Origin: Erysipelothrix sp.
GTDB taxonomy: Bacteria; Bacillota_I; Bacilli_A; Erysipelotrichales; Erysipelotrichaceae
Direction: 5' to 3'
NCBI GenBank assembly: GCA_012520695.1
Contig: JAAYNU010000002.1
Coordinates: 1-5,802, forward strand
DNA length: 5,802 bases
Shown here: piece after piece, positions 1 to 5,802 of the stretch
Position numbering within the stretch: position 1 is the stretch's first letter
Layout of the letters: each line of letters starts with the position of its first letter
Notes under the pieces: generated by a model
Told to the model about the DNA's origin: nothing
Database searches by the model: none
What the model saw: only the letters and a program-made list of their open reading frames with translations
Program-made: the position numbers and the translations under genes

Positions 1-2
1 CT

Positions 3-260
3 AAAACTTTTGAAATTGATCCAGAGATTCATGATGTAGATAGTGGTTTGAAATTCAAAGATACTTATAAATCGTGGGATTATGAAGTTGGTGAAGTAGT
101 TCTAGGATTTACGGACAGTATTTCTGAAGGACTTATCTACTTTGATGCTGAAACGGATAACTCAACTAAAACTGTAGCGATTACTTCATCAGTGGGGCTT
201 GTAACTGTTTCTGGTTATGTTCTCGCAACAACGTTAATGAATATTCGTAAACGTAAATAA
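3..260 (+). CDS. C-terminal fragment of a membrane-anchored protein (5' end missing)
   Basis: The reading frame is open from the first complete codon at base 3 to the TAA at 258-260, so 85 residues of the C-terminus are visible and the true start lies upstream of the window; the TTG at 48 has no reason to be a start. The fragment has an acidic soluble part (about residues 1-55), then a hydrophobic stretch rich in V, T, S and L (about residues 57-79), then a basic tail ending RKRK. This is the layout of a single C-terminal membrane anchor with the bulk of the protein outside the cell. No LPXTG-type sortase motif precedes the hydrophobic segment. I do not recognise the family. The beta-rich stretch before the anchor could be the end of a DacA-like D-Ala-D-Ala carboxypeptidase C-terminal domain, but this is only a weak resemblance. 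A terminator directly follows. Confidence 0.6.
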   Translation, partial: KTFEIDPEIHDVDSGLKFKDTYKSWDYEVGEVVLGFTDSISEGLIYFDAETDNSTKTVAITSSVGLVTVSGYVLATTLMNIRKRK

Positions 261-272
261 GATTAAAATTAG

Positions 273-314
273 CTCTTGGGTGATTGTGTTCACTCAAGGG
301 TTTTCTTTTGTTTT
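273..314 (+). terminator. Rho-independent terminator after the first partial gene
   Basis: Bases 273-283 pair with 290-300 in an 11-bp stem containing two G-T wobbles, around a 6-nt loop (284-289). A T-rich tract (301-314, interrupted by one C and one G) follows. It lies 12 nt after the stop codon at 260 and separates that gene from the operon starting at 367. Confidence 0.8.
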
Positions 315-319
315 CTATC

Positions 320-348
320 ATGATAATAGAGGTGTTTTATGGTAAAAT
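320..348 (+). promoter_or_regulatory. Candidate sigma-A promoter of the tseB-dnaD-nth-murF-ddl-alr operon
   Basis: TAAAAT at 343-348 is preceded by TG at 340-341, giving an extended -10 element (TGnTAAAAT). With a 17-nt spacer the -35 hexamer is ATGATA (320-325), matching TTGACA at four of six positions. It sits between the terminator and the first gene of the operon, which is where a promoter is required. The weak -35 is compatible with an extended -10. No operator or riboswitch-like structure is seen in the short leader. Confidence 0.5.
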
Positions 349-366
349 AATACCAGAGGTGTTGGA

Positions 367-834
367 ATGAAAAAGACGGGTCGTGTGTTTGCGATTAACC
401 TCCTTTTAATACTAGTTATTGTAATTTTATTGGGCGTTGGATATGTGTGGTTTATTGCTGGTCCAAGTCGTGCTTATGATAAACAAGATGAATTATATGT
501 ACTGGAATTTTTGGAAGGTGAAGATTATGATGAGGCTCGCATGGTGAGTCGTTTTTCATTTGACACAGTGTATTACATCCTTGAGGTGAAGGAGAATGAT
601 TTTCCTTCATTAGTTTGGTTTGACCATACCTTTGAGCGCTCGGGTGTTCATGATAATGTGGGCTTTGAGCCAGTGTTTGAATTGGCTGATAAGTATGGTG
701 TTGATCGTGAATCAATTTCGTTTGGTGTTTATGAAGATAAGTTGGTGTATGTGTTGCGTCGTAAGGATATGTTTGAAATATTTGTCTCGGTGGATACTTT
801 GGAAATTGTCTTGCATATTGGAGGTGTGTATTGA
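367..834 (+). CDS. TseB/YpmB-like membrane-anchored cell wall elongation protein
   Basis: This encodes 155 residues: a short basic N-terminus (MKKTGR), one hydrophobic segment at about residues 8-31, then an extracytoplasmic domain. The domain contains an aromatic beta-strand (YYILEV, then LVWFD) and ends in a paired strand region around residues 117-152 (ISFGVYEDKLVYVLRR...). This resembles the YpmB/DUF5590 fold, where a similar W/Y-rich hairpin ends the protein. In Bacillus, YpmB (renamed TseB) is a single-pass membrane protein linked to PBP-dependent cell wall elongation, and its gene lies just upstream of aspB-dnaD-nth. Here dnaD and nth follow directly and aspB is absent. The ATG at 367 has AGAGGTG at 355-361. 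The family call rests on size, topology, local motifs and this synteny; overall sequence similarity is low, so the symbol is left empty. Confidence 0.65.
   Translation: MKKTGRVFAINLLLILVIVILLGVGYVWFIAGPSRAYDKQDELYVLEFLEGEDYDEARMVSRFSFDTVYYILEVKENDFPSLVWFDHTFERSGVHDNVGFEPVFELADKYGVDRESISFGVYEDKLVYVLRRKDMFEIFVSVDTLEIVLHIGGVY
820..826 (+). promoter_or_regulatory. Ribosome binding site that decides the dnaD start
   Basis: GGAGGTG lies inside the end of the preceding gene. It is 7 nt from the ATG at 834 but only 4 nt from the in-frame TTG at 831, so the ATG is the better start. Confidence 0.7.
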
Positions 835-1331
835 TGTGGTGGAATAAAGCGTATGTTTCGCGTCGTGATTGGGTTCTTGAGAACTTAGGTGTTTTGAAGT
901 TAAGCGCTCATGAGATCGTGATTGTTTTGATGATTGATTATCTTAATGGCTTAAAGGTTGCGATTACACTTGAGGAACTTGCGGCTCGTACGGGGTTTGC
1001 GGTTGATGTGGTGGATGAAACCATTCAGTCACTTGTGGGTCGTGGATTTCTGTCGGTTCGTATGGAGTCGGGTTCGATTGCGTTTGTGATTGATGGCTTG
1101 TTTCAAGATGGTACCTTATATGAATTCGTGGATAAGGGAGTCTTTGAAATATTCGAAACGGAGTTTGGTCGTTTATTGAGTCAAAGCGAACTTGAAACCC
1201 TTAATTTATGGTTGTCTAAGTATACTCAAGAAGAGGTCCTTGATGCTTTGGGTAATGCGATCATTTATAAGAAGGTTTCGATGCAGTATATTAATGCGAT
1301 ATTGCATAATATGGAGCAAGAGCGTAAATGA
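834..1331 (+). CDS. dnaD: DnaD-like primosome protein, short form
   Basis: This encodes 165 residues from the ATG at 834, whose A is the last base of the previous TGA stop, so translation is probably coupled. Residues about 16-90 look like the N-terminal winged-helix domain of DnaD (DDBH1): a helical part, then a helix-turn-helix-like stretch (TLEELAARTGFAVDVVDETI) and a hairpin (GFLSVRMESGSIAFVID). Residues about 105-160 match the C-terminal DnaD domain (DDBH2: FETEFGRLLSQSELETLNLW, then YTQEEVLDAL, then YINAIL). DnaD helps load the replicative helicase at oriC and during replication restart in Firmicutes. It is shorter than the roughly 230-residue Bacillus protein, mainly because little follows DDBH2. 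The YxxxIxxxW signature near the end reads Y152, I156, M160, so the tryptophan is replaced by methionine. The neighbour nth is the usual partner gene. Confidence 0.82.
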   Translation: MWWNKAYVSRRDWVLENLGVLKLSAHEIVIVLMIDYLNGLKVAITLEELAARTGFAVDVVDETIQSLVGRGFLSVRMESGSIAFVIDGLFQDGTLYEFVDKGVFEIFETEFGRLLSQSELETLNLWLSKYTQEEVLDALGNAIIYKKVSMQYINAILHNMEQERK

Positions 1332-1948
1332 GTGTTGATGAGATAATTTGGATTTTGCGTCATGAATTTGGTGATGCGGGTTCGGACCTTGATTACAGAA
1401 ACCCATTTGAGTTATTAGTTGCGGTAACGCTGTCTGCACAGACTACGGATGCGATGGTGAATGTCGTTACAAAACCATTGTTTGAAGCGTATCCCGATGC
1501 TTTTGCTTTGAGTCAGGCTTTGGAGTCCGATGTGGCTCAGATTATTAATAAGATTGGTTTGTATCGTAATAAGTCTAAATTTATTATTGCGGCATCGAAG
1601 ATCTTAGTTGATAAGTATGATGGTGAAGTTCCTAAAACACGTAAGGCTCTTATGGAACTTCCGGGAGTGGGGCGTAAGACTGCGAACGTTGTTTTGGCAG
1701 TAGGTTATGGTATTCCTGCGATAGCGGTTGATACGCACGTTGAACGGGTTGCCAAGCGCTTAAAACTTGCGAAGCCCGATGATTCAGTGTTGGCTGTTGA
1801 ACAGAAACTAATGAGAAAAATTAAGCGGGAAGATTGGGCGGATGCTCATCATCTCTTATTATTGTTTGGTCGATACATTTCAAAAGCGAACATCAAAACA
1901 GATGCTTTTGAACTGTTGGAGAAATTGAAGGAGAAACACGAATTATGA
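1328..1948 (+). CDS. nth: Endonuclease III, cysteine-free (no Fe-S cluster motif)
   Basis: This encodes 206 residues. The enzyme is a base-excision-repair DNA glycosylase/AP lyase that removes oxidised pyrimidines. Supporting motifs are LLVAVTLSAQTTD (29-41), the helix-hairpin-helix LPGVGRKTANVVL (111-123) with the catalytic lysine K117, and AIAVDTHVERVAKRL (131-145) with the catalytic aspartate D135. These match K120 and D138 of E. coli Nth with a constant offset. The length agrees with the family (about 211). The odd feature is the C-terminus: after HHLLLLFGRY, where the family has C-x6-C-x2-C-x5-C holding a [4Fe-4S] cluster, this protein has none of the four cysteines, and none anywhere in its sequence. 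The reading frame continues normally to an ending of about the right length, so this is not a truncation. The ATG overlaps the dnaD stop (ATGA) and is preceded by GGAG at 1313-1316. Confidence 0.93.
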   Translation: MSVDEIIWILRHEFGDAGSDLDYRNPFELLVAVTLSAQTTDAMVNVVTKPLFEAYPDAFALSQALESDVAQIINKIGLYRNKSKFIIAASKILVDKYDGEVPKTRKALMELPGVGRKTANVVLAVGYGIPAIAVDTHVERVAKRLKLAKPDDSVLAVEQKLMRKIKREDWADAHHLLLLFGRYISKANIKTDAFELLEKLKEKHEL

Positions 1949-3258
1949 AAAATTTAAGTTCGAGTGTTATAGCATCGTGGTTAGGAACATCGGTTGATGT
2001 TGATGTTTCCTTGGATGGTGTCAAAGTAGATTCTCGTTTTGTAGAAAAAAATGATTTATTTGTATGTCTTCTTGGTGAGCGCGTTGATGGTCATGCTTAT
2101 GCGCGTCTTGCGTTGGAAAAGGGTGCTGCGTGTTTGCTTGTTGATCGACACTTGGATCTTGATATTCCGCAAATTATTGTAGGGGATACTTTAGAGGCTT
2201 TGAGACGTATTGCGCGTGAATATCGTAAAACATTGAATGCATTTTTTATTGGAATTACGGGGAGTAATGGAAAAACATCTACGAAGGATATTCTTCATGC
2301 TATCTTGCCAAATTCAGTTGCGACCTATAAGAATCAAAACACGGAGATTGGAACGTATCTAAATCTCTTTAGAATGGATTCGATGACTGAGTATGGAATT
2401 CTTGAATTTGGTTTGGATTATGAGGGTGATGTTGCATTAATGAGTTCGATTGTGGAGCCTGATGCAGCACTTATCATGAGTTTAGCGCCTGCTCATATGG
2501 CGAACTTTAATTCTATTGAGCATATCGCTTCTGAGAAGTTCATGATTTTTGATTCTCTCACAAATGATGATTTAGGTTTTTACCAAGGAGATTTCTCATT
2601 GTATCGTGCTTTGGCGAGTACTCAGCACAGCTTTGGCTTTGATGATTCAAATGAGTATGTCGTGAGTGATGTGGTATTGAATAATGTGGGTATTGACTTT
2701 AAGGTTAATGGTGTGAGTTATGCATCCAATCTATTAGGGAAACATCAGGCAAGTAACTGTGCGGGTGTGATTGCCTTAATGGAGAAGATGAACATTGATG
2801 ATGCTTTGATTCGTCATGGTTTGATGAATGTGGGTCTTACAGAGCTTCGTACTGAGATCGTTGAAGTAGGGAAGTCTTTAGTCTTATTGGACGCATATAA
2901 ATCAAATGCGAGCTCGACGAAGTATGCTCTTGATATCCTTGTGAATTATGACTTTGATGGTGATAAGATTGCGGTATTGAGTGATATGGTTGAGATGGGT
3001 GAAGAGAGTTTGAATGTTCATCTTGATGTATTGAATGAACTTGCGCGTTTAGATATTAAACACGTTTATACTTTGGGTTATGAATTTAATGATGCGCTTG
3101 GTGAAAGTGATCTTGATGCATCGAAGCTAACCAATTTTGATTCATTTGAAGCACTTGATGCGTTTGTCCAGTCTCTATTTGATACCAAACAAATGATTCT
3201 AATCAAGGGGTCGCGCTCTCATGCGCTTGAGTGTCTCATCCGGAAAGAAGGAAAATAA
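1945..3258 (+). CDS. murF: UDP-N-acetylmuramoyl-tripeptide--D-alanyl-D-X ligase (MurF)
   Basis: This encodes 437 residues, close to the usual 450. MurF is a cytoplasmic, ATP-dependent Mur ligase that joins a D-amino acid dipeptide to UDP-MurNAc-tripeptide. The N-terminal UMP-binding domain includes VDSRFVEKNDLFVCLLGERVDGH (28-50). The central ATPase domain has the P-loop GITGSNGKT (103-111), the KNQNTEIGTYLNL segment (129-141) and SLAPAHMANFNSIEHIASEK (179-198). The C-terminal domain has LLDAYKSNASSTKYALDIL (314-332), IAVLSDMVEMGEES (342-355) and ILIKGSRSHALE (418-429); KGSR near the end is typical of MurF. The motif usually read as D-D-S-Y-N-A-N-P is here L-D-A-Y-K-S-N-A, so several positions differ. 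The ATG overlaps the nth stop by 4 nt and AAGGAG lies at 1928-1933. The next gene makes the dipeptide MurF uses. Confidence 0.93.
   Translation: MKNLSSSVIASWLGTSVDVDVSLDGVKVDSRFVEKNDLFVCLLGERVDGHAYARLALEKGAACLLVDRHLDLDIPQIIVGDTLEALRRIAREYRKTLNAFFIGITGSNGKTSTKDILHAILPNSVATYKNQNTEIGTYLNLFRMDSMTEYGILEFGLDYEGDVALMSSIVEPDAALIMSLAPAHMANFNSIEHIASEKFMIFDSLTNDDLGFYQGDFSLYRALASTQHSFGFDDSNEYVVSDVVLNNVGIDFKVNGVSYASNLLGKHQASNCAGVIALMEKMNIDDALIRHGLMNVGLTELRTEIVEVGKSLVLLDAYKSNASSTKYALDILVNYDFDGDKIAVLSDMVEMGEESLNVHLDVLNELARLDIKHVYTLGYEFNDALGESDLDASKLTNFDSFEALDAFVQSLFDTKQMILIKGSRSHALECLIRKEGK
3247..3252 (+). promoter_or_regulatory. Ribosome binding site that decides the ddl start
   Basis: GAAGGA at 3247-3252 lies 7 nt before the ATG at 3260. 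An in-frame ATG at 3221 would add 13 residues overlapping the end of murF and has no such site, so the 3260 start is chosen; it also places the family motif (ALVFGSVNSEHDIS) at the normal distance from the N-terminus. Confidence 0.8.
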
Positions 3259-3259
3259 T

Positions 3260-4276
3260 ATGAAAAAACAAATCGCTTTAGTTTTCGGTTCCGTTAACTC
3301 TGAACACGATATCTCGGTTGCATCTGCGGCTTCGGTCTATGAGTATTTCCCTCATGATGTGTATGATTGTGTTTTACTCTACATTGCGAAAGATGGTACG
3401 TTTAATGTCGGTGATTATACATTAGAGGATATGTACAATAATGATTTAAAAAATCATCGTTCATTGTATTTAAACTTTGATTATCAAAACCCTGGATTCG
3501 TTGAACAAGCGAGCGGTAAGGCTGTTTCGATTGATGCAGCATTCTTAATGCTTCATGGTCAAATGGGCGAAGGGGGCCACGTTCAAGGGCTTCTTAAGTG
3601 CGCTAATATACCGTTCACGGGTTGTGATGTGCTGTCATCATCATTATGCATGGATAAAGGCTTTACGCATGAGGTTTGTGAGGCTAATGGTATTCCTATG
3701 GCAGGGTATCAATTAATTTATTCTCTCGAGGATATTGATTACTCTCGCATAGATTATCCTATGATTGTGAAGCCGTGTCGTGAAGGATCTTCCTTTGGTG
3801 TTTCAATTGCGCATTCAAAAGAAGAACTTCTTAAGGCTTGCGAATTTGCGTTTGGATTTGATCAACGCATTCTAATTGAAGACTACATTGATGGTGTTGA
3901 GGTTGGTGTGAGTGTTCTGAAGACTGCGGATGAGTTCATTGTTTCCTATGCGGACCAAGTAAACGTCTCGGGTGAAATCTTTGATTTCCAAGAAAAATAT
4001 CATCCTCATGCTACTGAGACACTACCGTATGCACTGTTTCCAGAAGAGATTACTGAGAAGATTCGTATGTATTCAAAACAGGCATTTGAGATACTTGATT
4101 GTGAACAATTTGCGCGTATTGATTTCTTTATCTCGAAGGATCATGGAGTGTTCTTTAATGAAATCAATACAATTCCAGGGTTCACTGTGAACTCTCGTTA
4201 TCCATCAATGATTGCGAGAATGGGAACGGACTATACAACACTGATTACAAAACTCATTGAAGGAGCGCACTCATGA
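3260..4276 (+). CDS. D-alanine--D-X ligase, VanC/VanG-like (predicted D-Ala-D-Ser type)
   Basis: This encodes 338 residues with ATP-grasp architecture. Visible motifs: VFGSVNSEHDISVASA (8-23, with E15), LMLHGQMGEGGHVQG (96-110), GCDVLSSSLCMDK (121-133), IVKPCREGSSFGV (169-181), the omega loop IFDFQEKYHPH (240-250) and FFNEINTIPGFTVNSRYP (298-315). Housekeeping D-Ala-D-Ala ligases of Firmicutes usually read FYDYxxKY and SMYP at the last two sites. This protein has F241 and R313, as in VanC and VanG, where the equivalents (VanC2 F250/R322, VanG F252/R324) determine use of D-Ser; VanG D243 also matches D232 with the same offset. The EKY of the omega loop favours the VanC/E/G group over VanA/B. 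I infer D-Ala-D-Ser ligase activity; a plain Ddl role with unusual residues is the alternative. The gene starts 1 nt after murF and overlaps the racemase by 4 nt. No vanRS, vanX or vanXY is in the window. Confidence 0.85.
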   Translation: MKKQIALVFGSVNSEHDISVASAASVYEYFPHDVYDCVLLYIAKDGTFNVGDYTLEDMYNNDLKNHRSLYLNFDYQNPGFVEQASGKAVSIDAAFLMLHGQMGEGGHVQGLLKCANIPFTGCDVLSSSLCMDKGFTHEVCEANGIPMAGYQLIYSLEDIDYSRIDYPMIVKPCREGSSFGVSIAHSKEELLKACEFAFGFDQRILIEDYIDGVEVGVSVLKTADEFIVSYADQVNVSGEIFDFQEKYHPHATETLPYALFPEEITEKIRMYSKQAFEILDCEQFARIDFFISKDHGVFFNEINTIPGFTVNSRYPSMIARMGTDYTTLITKLIEGAHS

Positions 4277-5382
4277 TTGAGAATTCAGCACTGATTGTCG
4301 ATAAAAAAGCTGTCATTGATAATACTGAACTTCTTAGAAGTAATCTGAATCCTAATACTAAAATCATTTCAGTCATTAAAGCTAATGGATACGGTTTGGG
4401 ATTGGTTCAAGTTGCTGAGTTGTGCGAGGAGATGGGGATTGATATCCTAGCAGTTCTAGATGTGGAACAGGCCCGTGATCTTCGTGAGGCGGGGATTAAG
4501 AGTCCAATCTTACTTCTAGGTGCTGTTCTTGAAGATAACTTTAAATACTTAATTGAATATGATCTAATCCAGGTTATTATTAATCATGAATATGCTCTTA
4601 AGATGAATGAGTATGCCTTAGAACATGGCGTTAAAATTAAGACGCATGTGAAACATGATACCGGTCTTAACAGACTGGGTATGCGTGATTATGATGAGAT
4701 TAAGTCATGTTACTTCCTGGAAGGACTTGATGTCCAGGGGATTTATACGCACTTCACTGCCAGTCAATCCTATGATCCTGATGATGTCGCGTTCTCTCAT
4801 CTTCAAATTAAGACATTCAATGATGTGTTGGATCGTCTAAGAAGTGAGGACATTGATGTCGGCATGACACACATGCAAAACAGTCCTTCCATTCTTCAAT
4901 TTGGGGATTTAGGATATGATGCGGTGCGTTGTGGAATGGTGATGTTTGGTTTATTCCATCCATCTCAGCGACAAATTGCCTATGATGCAGGCTATCGCTC
5001 GGTTATCTCTTTTGAAACTCATATCTGTATGGTGCGTGATTTACATAAGGGTGATGCGGTTGGGTATTCTCGTAGTTATCGTGTTGATGAAACAATGCGC
5101 GTCGCAACACTCAGTACTGGGTATTGTGATGGCATTATGCGATCACTTAGTGTGAATGGCGGTGGTGTTGTGGTGAATGGGGTTCTATGCCCAATTCTTG
5201 GCGACATTGCGATGAGTCAATTCATGATTGATGTCACTAACGTTGATTGTAAGCTTGAAGATAAGGCCATTGTCTTTGGTCATGAACTACAATCTGTCTA
5301 TGAAACCATTGACCTAACCGGACAAACAATCAATGAATTTATTTCACATCTACGCTATGATTTGAAACGAATATATCGCTAA
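4273..5382 (+). CDS. alr: Alanine racemase, PLP-dependent, with altered substrate-entry residues
   Basis: This encodes 369 residues, a normal length for the family, with no membrane segment. It interconverts L- and D-alanine (possibly also serine) to feed the ligase encoded just upstream. Visible elements: the PLP lysine in ISVIKANGYG (K36) with Y40; the carbamylated-lysine and arginine motif VKHDTGLNRLG (K127, R134); IYTHFTAS (H160); MQNSPS (N203); AVRCGMVMFG (R219); the catalytic tyrosine in GDAVGYSRSY (Y265); and STGYCDGIMR (Y284). All catalytic residues are therefore present. Odd points: the normally conserved GRI(C/S)MDQ reads GDIAMSQ (310-316), so Arg is Asp and Asp is Ser, and the Asp after the catalytic-site THF motif is Gln165. 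The gate tyrosine (Y354 in Geobacillus Alr) appears kept as Y362, whereas VanT serine racemases have Asn there. AAGGAG at 4260-4265 precedes the ATG by 7 nt. Confidence 0.92.
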   Translation: MIENSALIVDKKAVIDNTELLRSNLNPNTKIISVIKANGYGLGLVQVAELCEEMGIDILAVLDVEQARDLREAGIKSPILLLGAVLEDNFKYLIEYDLIQVIINHEYALKMNEYALEHGVKIKTHVKHDTGLNRLGMRDYDEIKSCYFLEGLDVQGIYTHFTASQSYDPDDVAFSHLQIKTFNDVLDRLRSEDIDVGMTHMQNSPSILQFGDLGYDAVRCGMVMFGLFHPSQRQIAYDAGYRSVISFETHICMVRDLHKGDAVGYSRSYRVDETMRVATLSTGYCDGIMRSLSVNGGGVVVNGVLCPILGDIAMSQFMIDVTNVDCKLEDKAIVFGHELQSVYETIDLTGQTINEFISHLRYDLKRIYR

Positions 5383-5405
5383 ACTGGAGTAATCCAGTTT
5401 TTTTT
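5381..5405 (+). terminator. Rho-independent terminator ending the operon
   Basis: AAACTGGA (5381-5388) pairs perfectly with TCCAGTTT (5393-5400) around a 4-nt loop (GTAA) and runs into an uninterrupted T tract to 5405. It starts inside the alr stop codon. The stem has only four G-C pairs, so some read-through into the next gene is possible. Confidence 0.88.
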
Positions 5406-5419
5406 GGTTTAATAGAGAG

Positions 5420-5427
5420 AAAGGAGG
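5420..5427 (+). promoter_or_regulatory. Strong ribosome binding site of the hydrolase gene
   Basis: AAAGGAGG is close to a perfect anti-16S match and lies 7 nt from the ATG at 5435. It shows that translation is meant to begin at 5435, in a different frame from the hydrolase domain downstream, and so reveals the frame break in this gene. Confidence 0.85.
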
Positions 5428-5434
5428 CGACTTC

Positions 5435-5802
5435 ATGGCCTATTTCGTTACAGCTCTAGTTATTATACTGGTGATTCTTTACTTCATTGCGCGTCATTTT
5501 TATGAACCGCAATACAAAGAATTTCTTCAGTGGAAATATGGAAGAGAAGGTTGTGAGTGAGTCTCGTACTCGATTAAACCAGTGGTTTGATGATCATACA
5601 ACACCGTGGTCCATCACTTCGGATGATGGCTTAAAATTAAATGCTTACTACATTGAAAATGAAGTACAGAGTGATACTGTGGTCTTAATGGCCCATGGTT
5701 ACTTAGGTAAAGTCAAAGACATGAGTACTTTTGCACAGATATTCTATCCTAAGGGATTTGATTGCCTTGCACCCGATGCATGGCCCATGGTTACTTAGGT
5801 AA
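5435..5802 (+). CDS. Membrane-anchored alpha/beta hydrolase, N-terminal part, frame interrupted and 3' end missing
   Basis: The gene starts at the ATG at 5435 behind a strong ribosome binding site. The first residues (MAYFVTALVIILVILYFIAR) form one hydrophobic anchor, but this frame stops at 5558-5560. The hydrolase body is in the frame one base over: MNRNTKNFFSGNMEEKV from 5502, then WSITSDDGLKLNAYYI, then VVLMAHGYLGKVKDM, with the HG oxyanion-type motif of the alpha/beta hydrolase family, then GFDCLAPDA ending at 5779. Removing one T from the T5 run at 5497-5501 joins the two parts as ARHF-MNRNTKNFF, as expected of membrane-anchored hydrolases of Firmicutes. From 5780 the sequence repeats 5688-5710 out of frame and reaches a TAG at 5796-5798. 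The nucleophile motif (GxSxG) would lie beyond the window. The substrate is unknown. The interruption may be sequencing or assembly error rather than a true pseudogene. Confidence 0.7.
5688..5710 (+). repeat. First copy of a 23-bp direct repeat (inside the hydrolase gene)
   Basis: The copy begins ATGGCCCATGG and ends TTAGGTAA. It encodes MAHGYLG in the hydrolase frame, so this is the genuine position. An identical copy occurs 92 bp downstream. Confidence 0.9.
5780..5802 (+). repeat. Second copy of the 23-bp direct repeat, at the very end of the window
   Basis: Identical to 5688-5710 over 23 bases; the preceding base differs (C at 5779, A at 5687). The spacing of 92 bp is not a multiple of three, so this copy is out of frame and breaks the hydrolase after APDA, where the family would normally continue with R-G-H-G-like sequence. 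Its end coincides with the window end, which points to an assembly overlap artefact or the start of a tandem duplication. Confidence 0.85.

Follow-up and report, generated by a model that had tools for sequence, protein, structure and literature searches.

Intrinsic vancomycin resistance in Clostridium innocuum was reportedly described by David et al. in 2004, and the ligase and racemase genes of this organism are said to lie on the chromosome outside an inducible cluster. Inducible vanG-type clusters carry vanXY and vanRS beside the ligase gene. According to the open-licence literature in PubMed Central (PMC), the precursors of C. innocuum end in serine, presumably via two chromosomal genes, and its minimum inhibitory concentrations (MICs) of vancomycin are 4–16 mg/L (PMC8888209). 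For Erysipelothrix the published accounts of resistance conflict: PMC9637936 cites an older claim of D-Ala-D-Lac, and itself argues for D-Ala-D-Ala from the annotation of murF and proposes a vex23-vncRS locus for resistance. We have analysed a stretch of 5,802 nucleotides from Erysipelothrix sp. (assembly GCA_012520695.1, contig JAAYNU010000002.1, positions 1 to 5,802; hereafter the window), in which a Ddl-type ligase gene lies between murF and an alr-type racemase gene, as an initial annotation of this DNA had described. Its sequence suggests a third account, in which the ligase probably couples D-Ala with D-Ser supplied by the neighbouring racemase, and MurF would build D-Ala-D-Ser stems constantly.

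Like C. innocuum, Erysipelothrix is vancomycin resistant, its ligase and racemase genes are chromosomal and stand outside an inducible cluster, and it is predicted to make serine-ending precursors without an acquired cluster; it differs in that MICs are mostly higher in E. rhusiopathiae. Neither vanXY nor vanRS is present in the window, as the initial annotation had stated, although no genome-wide search for vanRS was made. What is new here is the proposal of a D-Ser pathway for Erysipelothrix, serine-ending precursors having already been reported for C. innocuum; no such proposal for Erysipelothrix was found among the matches listed from the open-licence PMC literature.

Selectivity residues of the murF-linked ligase

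The selectivity of VanG for D-Ser is reportedly set by Asp, Phe and Arg positions identified from its structure, and work on VanC2 mutants is likewise said to have defined selectivity residues for D-Ser; we take the VanG residues to be D243, F252 and R324, with this role. The window ligase is encoded by an intact open reading frame (ORF) of 338 codons, and its D232, F241 and R313 align with these three residues of VanG (structure 4fu0) at a constant offset of 11. In a single alignment VanA, VanN and a VanG-like ligase of Paenibacillus all read D-F-R at the triad, whereas the Ddl enzymes of Escherichia coli read G-Y-M (DdlA) and I-Y-L (DdlB) and that of Pontibacillus reads G-Y-M. It can be seen that the window ligase lacks, at both selectivity positions, the Tyr and the Met or Leu of housekeeping D-Ala-D-Ala ligases. 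These alignments bear out the initial annotation, which had singled out F241 and R313 as resistance-type residues and had equated D232 with D243 of VanG. D-F-R is found in 123 of 139 ligase rows (the query, the best 120 of 1239 matches and 18 locus ligases, duplicates included), and the window ligase is 59–65% identical to those of the named relatives E. anatis, E. aquatica, E. urinaevulpis, E. inopinata and E. tonsillarum.

The same triad is present in VanA, a D-Lac ligase, which weakens the case for D-Ser and leads to an alternative in which the window ligase makes D-Ala-D-Lac and the depsipeptide confers resistance. VanH-like dehydrogenases are encoded in all 13 genus genomes, with best identities of 37–40%, although these matches belong to a broad family and D-Lac production by them is only putative. 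Within the ligase, only the omega loop would favour D-Ser over D-Lac: E245-K246-Y247 is shared with VanN, the VanG-like ligase and Ddl and is missing from VanA, much as the initial annotation had proposed for this loop, and K246 and Y247 are invariant across a 33-row alignment. Leuconostoc-type D-Lac ligases have Phe in place of the loop Tyr, whereas the window ligase retains Tyr247. The gene linked to the ligase, moreover, encodes an amino-acid racemase and not a dehydrogenase. High MICs (see below) fit D-Lac better than D-Ser, and the older claim cited by PMC9637936 agrees with such a product; on balance, we regard D-Lac as a quite improbable second substrate.

Curated models class the window ligase as Ddl. 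It scores above the cut-offs of two Ddl models (NF002528, 299.2 against 262; TIGR01205, 275.1 against 245.65) and falls well below those of the VanG model (292.9 against 495 bits) and the D-Ala-D-Ser model (256.2 against 520). This fits an explanation that we consider unlikely, namely that the enzyme is an ordinary D-Ala-D-Ala ligase that has drifted and that resistance arises elsewhere, for example from the vex23-vncRS locus or an unusual stem peptide. PMC9637936 infers D-Ala-D-Ala and proposes vex23-vncRS, but a murF annotation is uninformative on the dipeptide, and the peptidoglycan table of that source does not list ddl. An ordinary Ddl would also have to account for a triad that is absent from the three reference Ddl enzymes and from all 15 murF-linked ligases of the sister family.

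With housekeeping Ddl enzymes the window ligase has in common the ATP-grasp fold, the invariant catalytic-site residues, the linkage to murF and the two Ddl-model cut-offs passed; it differs at the second-substrate pocket, where they have G/I-Y-M/L, and in its VanT-like racemase partner. With VanG and VanN it shares the D-F-R triad and the EKY loop, and it differs from them in its model scores and in being linked to murF. Its best solved-structure match by sequence is VanG 4fu0. The predicted structure has a mean predicted local distance difference test (pLDDT) score of 92, with loop 242–250 poorly modelled, and its best fold match is again 4fu0, DdlA scoring so nearly the same that the fold search is non-discriminating. 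Curated cut-offs file neither the ligase as VanG nor the racemase as VanT, and our claim is one of predicted VanG/VanT-like working. If it is true, a resistance-type ligase can be annotated as a housekeeping Ddl.

A VanT-type residue in the adjacent racemase

Asn at position 354 reportedly favours serine, according to work on Geobacillus Alr and VanT. Geobacillus numbering was transferred via Anoxybacillus Alr, anchored on K39, Y265 and C311-M312-D313, which places 354 at the Tyr of the TINYE motif. The linked racemase of the window has Asn at this position, like VanT-N, whereas Anoxybacillus Alr has Tyr. The tyrosine of a TISYR motif was also considered as the equivalent of Tyr354, which would have made the neighbour alanine-type, and was ruled out by the same anchors. 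The best NCBIfam score of the linked racemase is with vanT-G-Cterm (301.7 bits), its score with the alr model (263.6 bits) is above cut-off, and its best solved-structure match is the serine racemase 4ecl. Asn354 in the linked racemase strengthens the D-Ser reading of the ligase. The initial annotation had taken this neighbour for an ordinary alr and described the locus as lacking vanT; there is indeed no full-length VanT in the window, but the adjacent racemase carries the VanT-type Asn354.

Each of the 13 genus genomes encodes two racemases. The ligase-linked copy has Asn354 in all 11 genomes with a linked gene, whereas the unlinked Alr has Tyr354 in 13 of 13; the remaining two genomes (G009 and G010) have a Cys354 racemase instead of the linked copy. 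The VanT-G model gives the best score for the linked racemase of the window and for that of a second genome (G005), and the alr model for the unlinked Alr of the window genome. A pathway for alanine alone would need no second racemase with a VanT residue in the ligase operon, which argues against an ordinary Ddl.

The likeness to VanT serine racemases thus extends to Asn354 and to the best NCBIfam and structure matches, and several differences count against it. The linked racemase has no membrane half and remains below the VanT model cut-off of 460 bits, and the linked Erysipelothrix racemases read D, A and S at positions 309, 311 and 313, in place of the R, C and D of the reference Alr and VanT proteins. 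In addition, several relatives with only a D-F-R ligase (for example G013, G022, G031 and G036) own a single racemase, linked and with Asn354, which means that Asn354 is not confined to serine unless D-Ala comes from elsewhere. In these relatives the linked Asn354 enzyme would have to make D-Ala as well, or another enzyme would have to supply it; VanT makes D-Ala weakly. Such relatives show that an Asn354 racemase is compatible with a need for D-Ala, as an ordinary Ddl would require.

A single Ddl per genome and the proposed pathway

Exactly one Ddl above cut-off was found in 12 of the 13 genus genomes, the window genome included; 11 of these have the D-F-R triad and one has C-A-L (G009), and the named D-F-R genomes belong to species of the genus other than E. 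rhusiopathiae. The presence of D-F-R in 11 of the 12 genomes with a Ddl is more than chance. No second Ddl was detected in the window genome, which is 88% complete, or in the 11 further genomes that have one, so that the initial annotation's call for a search for a second ligase has turned up none. In the remaining genome (G010, 97% complete) there was no Ddl match above cut-off. Three weaker ATP-grasp matches were inspected and are not Ddl; they look like a biotin carboxylase, an ATP-grasp protein of a polysaccharide locus and PurD. Other weak matches were discarded for low score; the majority of these lie in far longer frames.

We propose that the unlinked Tyr354 Alr would provide D-Ala and the linked Asn354 racemase D-Ser, that the ligase would prefer D-Ser as its second substrate, that transcription of the gene run would be constitutive, and that vancomycin would then be left without a high-affinity target. 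A cell that lacks a D-Ala-D-Ala ligase would have no use for a VanXY-type clean-up enzyme; VanY-family genes are present in all 13 genus genomes, and the two of their 21 matches that were scored were both below the VanXY cut-off. If this pathway operates, a genus may live without D-Ala-D-Ala, and its long-known vancomycin resistance would be explained. The initial annotation had suggested such a mechanism of resistance: the triad, the murF-linked operon, the sole Ddl found and the Asn354 partner support it, while the shortfall from the VanG cut-off, the tree tests and the published MICs do not.

A branch within Erysipelothrix has x-A-L ligases, with Cys, Val, Leu, Gly or Thr followed by Ala-Leu (L008, also recorded as L182:9490-10500, of G009; P0048-P0052 and P0054-P0061). 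In G009 the racemase adjoining the x-A-L ligase is gone. The enlarged pocket of these ligases may accept a third second substrate.

Phylogenetic placement of the ligase

A tree built from all columns separates Ddl from Van ligases with support of 100/99 and places Erysipelothrix on the Van side; the Y-Y-L/F-Y-L ligases also fall within that side, and the x-A-L branch nests within Erysipelothrix. Removal of the three trait columns, together with three long rows, left the Ddl/Van split intact in the free tree (100/94). However, trees in which Erysipelothrix was held with Ddl were not rejected by the approximately unbiased (AU) test, either with this reduced alignment (p 0.25) or after removal of 39 loop positions (p 0.39); in the latter case the free tree splits the 14 Ddl rows, and a tree uniting those rows is no worse. 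In the tree check that accompanied the initial annotation, the ligase falls on the Van side both with all columns and with the three trait columns removed, and the AU tests do not reject the Ddl-side placement that an ordinary Ddl would predict. We conclude that the tree is consistent with a D-Ser ligase and is no proof of one.

Published vancomycin susceptibility

Single isolates of E. rhusiopathiae (PMC9637936) and of Erysipelothrix sp. (PMC11520285) each had a vancomycin MIC of 32 mg/L. For 38 E. rhusiopathiae strains the table row ends with 64 and 256 mg/L, which we read as MIC50 and MIC90 (PMC12837339), and for a further 18 strains the row ends with 256 and 512 mg/L, 12 of the strains being in the two highest filled classes (PMC12108183). 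For comparison, MICs of 2–32 are given for VanC2 (PMC12004154) and of 4–16 for C. innocuum (PMC8888209). The published E. rhusiopathiae values are mostly above the range usual for D-Ser, which counts against the proposed pathway; six of the 18 isolates in PMC12108183 appear far below the others. High MICs could stem from a total absence of D-Ala-D-Ala or from an additional factor. Bulleidia, Holdemania massiliensis and Solobacterium moorei are reported to be vancomycin-susceptible.

Ligase and racemase pairing in the family and its sister family

We surveyed 116 genomes of the same family, leaving out of the tally the weak ligase-like genes of four genomes (L236-L239). A D-F-R ligase alone was found in 29 genomes, D-F-R together with a second, long PGSL-type ligase in 28, and the long type alone in 42; the others have the long type with another ligase-like gene (1), Y-Y-L/F-Y-L only (8), D-Y-R only (2) or no Ddl found (6). 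The long type (about 390–420 residues, NTIPGSLxFYL; L087-L089, L095, L096, L198 and others) is common in the family and is often encoded beside a Mur ligase of about 530 residues. The six genomes in which the survey found no Ddl (G025, G026, G060, G083, G099 and G010) are all at least 91% complete, and two of them, G026 and G060, have no Alr match either.

Among 63 ligase-racemase pairs, the neighbour has Asn354 for 53 of 55 D-F-R ligases and for none of eight other ligases. Loci repeating a genome, loci without a readable position 354 (L041, L042, L046 and L051) and pairs more than 300 bases apart, such as L097 and L080, were dropped before counting; at L097 a D-Y-R ligase lies beside vanRS and the racemase has Leu at 354. 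Two D-F-R ligases, at L038 and L090, have a neighbour with Val or Tyr at 354 and do not follow the pairing, and the tree leaves only two independent contrasts behind these counts. Because of this shared ancestry, a Fisher p of about 1e-8 for the pairing is not counted as evidence; the racemase trait is co-directional in 1.9 of the two contrasts on average, with significance out of reach. At L077 (G104) a D-Y-R ligase adjoins a Tyr354 racemase, as if the two had turned back to alanine together.

For a sister family of the same order, 20 stretches were examined, of which 18 belong to it. Its murF-linked ligases are G-Y-M in 15 of 15 cases, whereas the ligases beside vanXY are D-F-R in three of three. 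All eight racemases encoded no more than 4 kb from a match to the VanG model have Asn354 (the triad was read at four of these eight loci), and all 21 other Alrs have Tyr354, a pattern that backs the association of Asn354 with serine.

A gene resembling the membrane half of VanT is present in 15 of 28 murF-linked D-F-R operons with enough flank and in the one murF-linked D-Y-R operon, and in none of seven Y-Y-L/F-Y-L operons. It occurs as a separate gene 3' of the racemase (L068-L079, L082, L084, L091, L108 and L117), an arrangement that resembles the vanL cluster with its split vanT, and two of its proteins score with VanT models only, below cut-off. The same gene is absent from all eight Erysipelothrix loci with enough flank, and a relative of it occurs anywhere in only five of the 13 genus genomes, which speaks against the D-Ser reading. 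Apparent MurF-Ddl fusions in a single frame of about 810 residues were seen at L062, L082, L090, L108 and L117.

A broader scenario is possible, and we put it forward tentatively. In Erysipelothrix, D-Ala-D-Ser would not be a state of resistance, and the cell would be able to make no other wall terminus. The murF-linked ligase and racemase of the family would have shifted jointly from alanine to serine, with reversal in a few lineages (Y-Y-L/F-Y-L with Asp, Ser or His354; D-Y-R with Tyr354), and the x-A-L branch would have reached a third terminal residue. On this view a housekeeping operon would have mobile cousins in the inducible vanG and vanL clusters.

Organisation of the locus

Six genes of the window run in the same direction (Table 1). 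The dnaD-like gene and nth, nth and murF, and the ligase and racemase genes overlap by 4 bases each, and the gap between murF and the ligase gene is a single base. The order from the dnaD-like gene to the racemase is identical at four genus loci with long flanks (L187, L188, L193 and L243) and in E. inopinata (L035). Promoter and terminator scans of the window gave no more sites than shuffled sequences, and constitutive transcription of the run is suggested by its layout alone.

Table 1. Positions of genes, codons and other features in the window.
Feature	Position	Strand	Basis
Short protein with hydrophobic N-terminus, first in the gene run	367..834	+	ORF; no Pfam or NCBIfam match
DnaD-like gene	831..1331	+	DnaD_dom and DnaB_2 matches above cut-off
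nth, endonuclease III	1328..1948	+	TIGR01083 above cut-off
murF, joins the ligase's dipeptide to UDP-MurNAc-tripeptide	1945..3258	+	TIGR01143 above cut-off
ddl-type ligase, D-F-R triad, predicted D-Ala-D-Ser ligase	3260..4276	+	Domain models, alignments, predicted structure
D232 codon (VanG D243)	3953..3955	+	Alignment
F241 codon (VanG F252; Tyr in reference Ddl enzymes)	3980..3982	+	Alignment
Omega-loop E245-K246-Y247	3992..4000	+	Alignment
R313 codon (VanG R324; Met or Leu in reference Ddl enzymes)	4196..4198	+	Alignment
alr-type racemase, Asn at 354, predicted D-Ser supplier	4273..5382	+	NCBIfam scores, structure match 4ecl, Asn354
Racemase N354 codon	5332..5334	+	Alignment
Terminator-like hairpin 3' of the racemase	5381..5400	+	Weak: 4 in the window, 3.6 expected in shuffles

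At the end of the contig, 23 bases (5780-5802) duplicate positions 5688-5710, 92 bases upstream, inside a truncated hydrolase-like gene; this terminal repeat looks like an assembly-end artefact.
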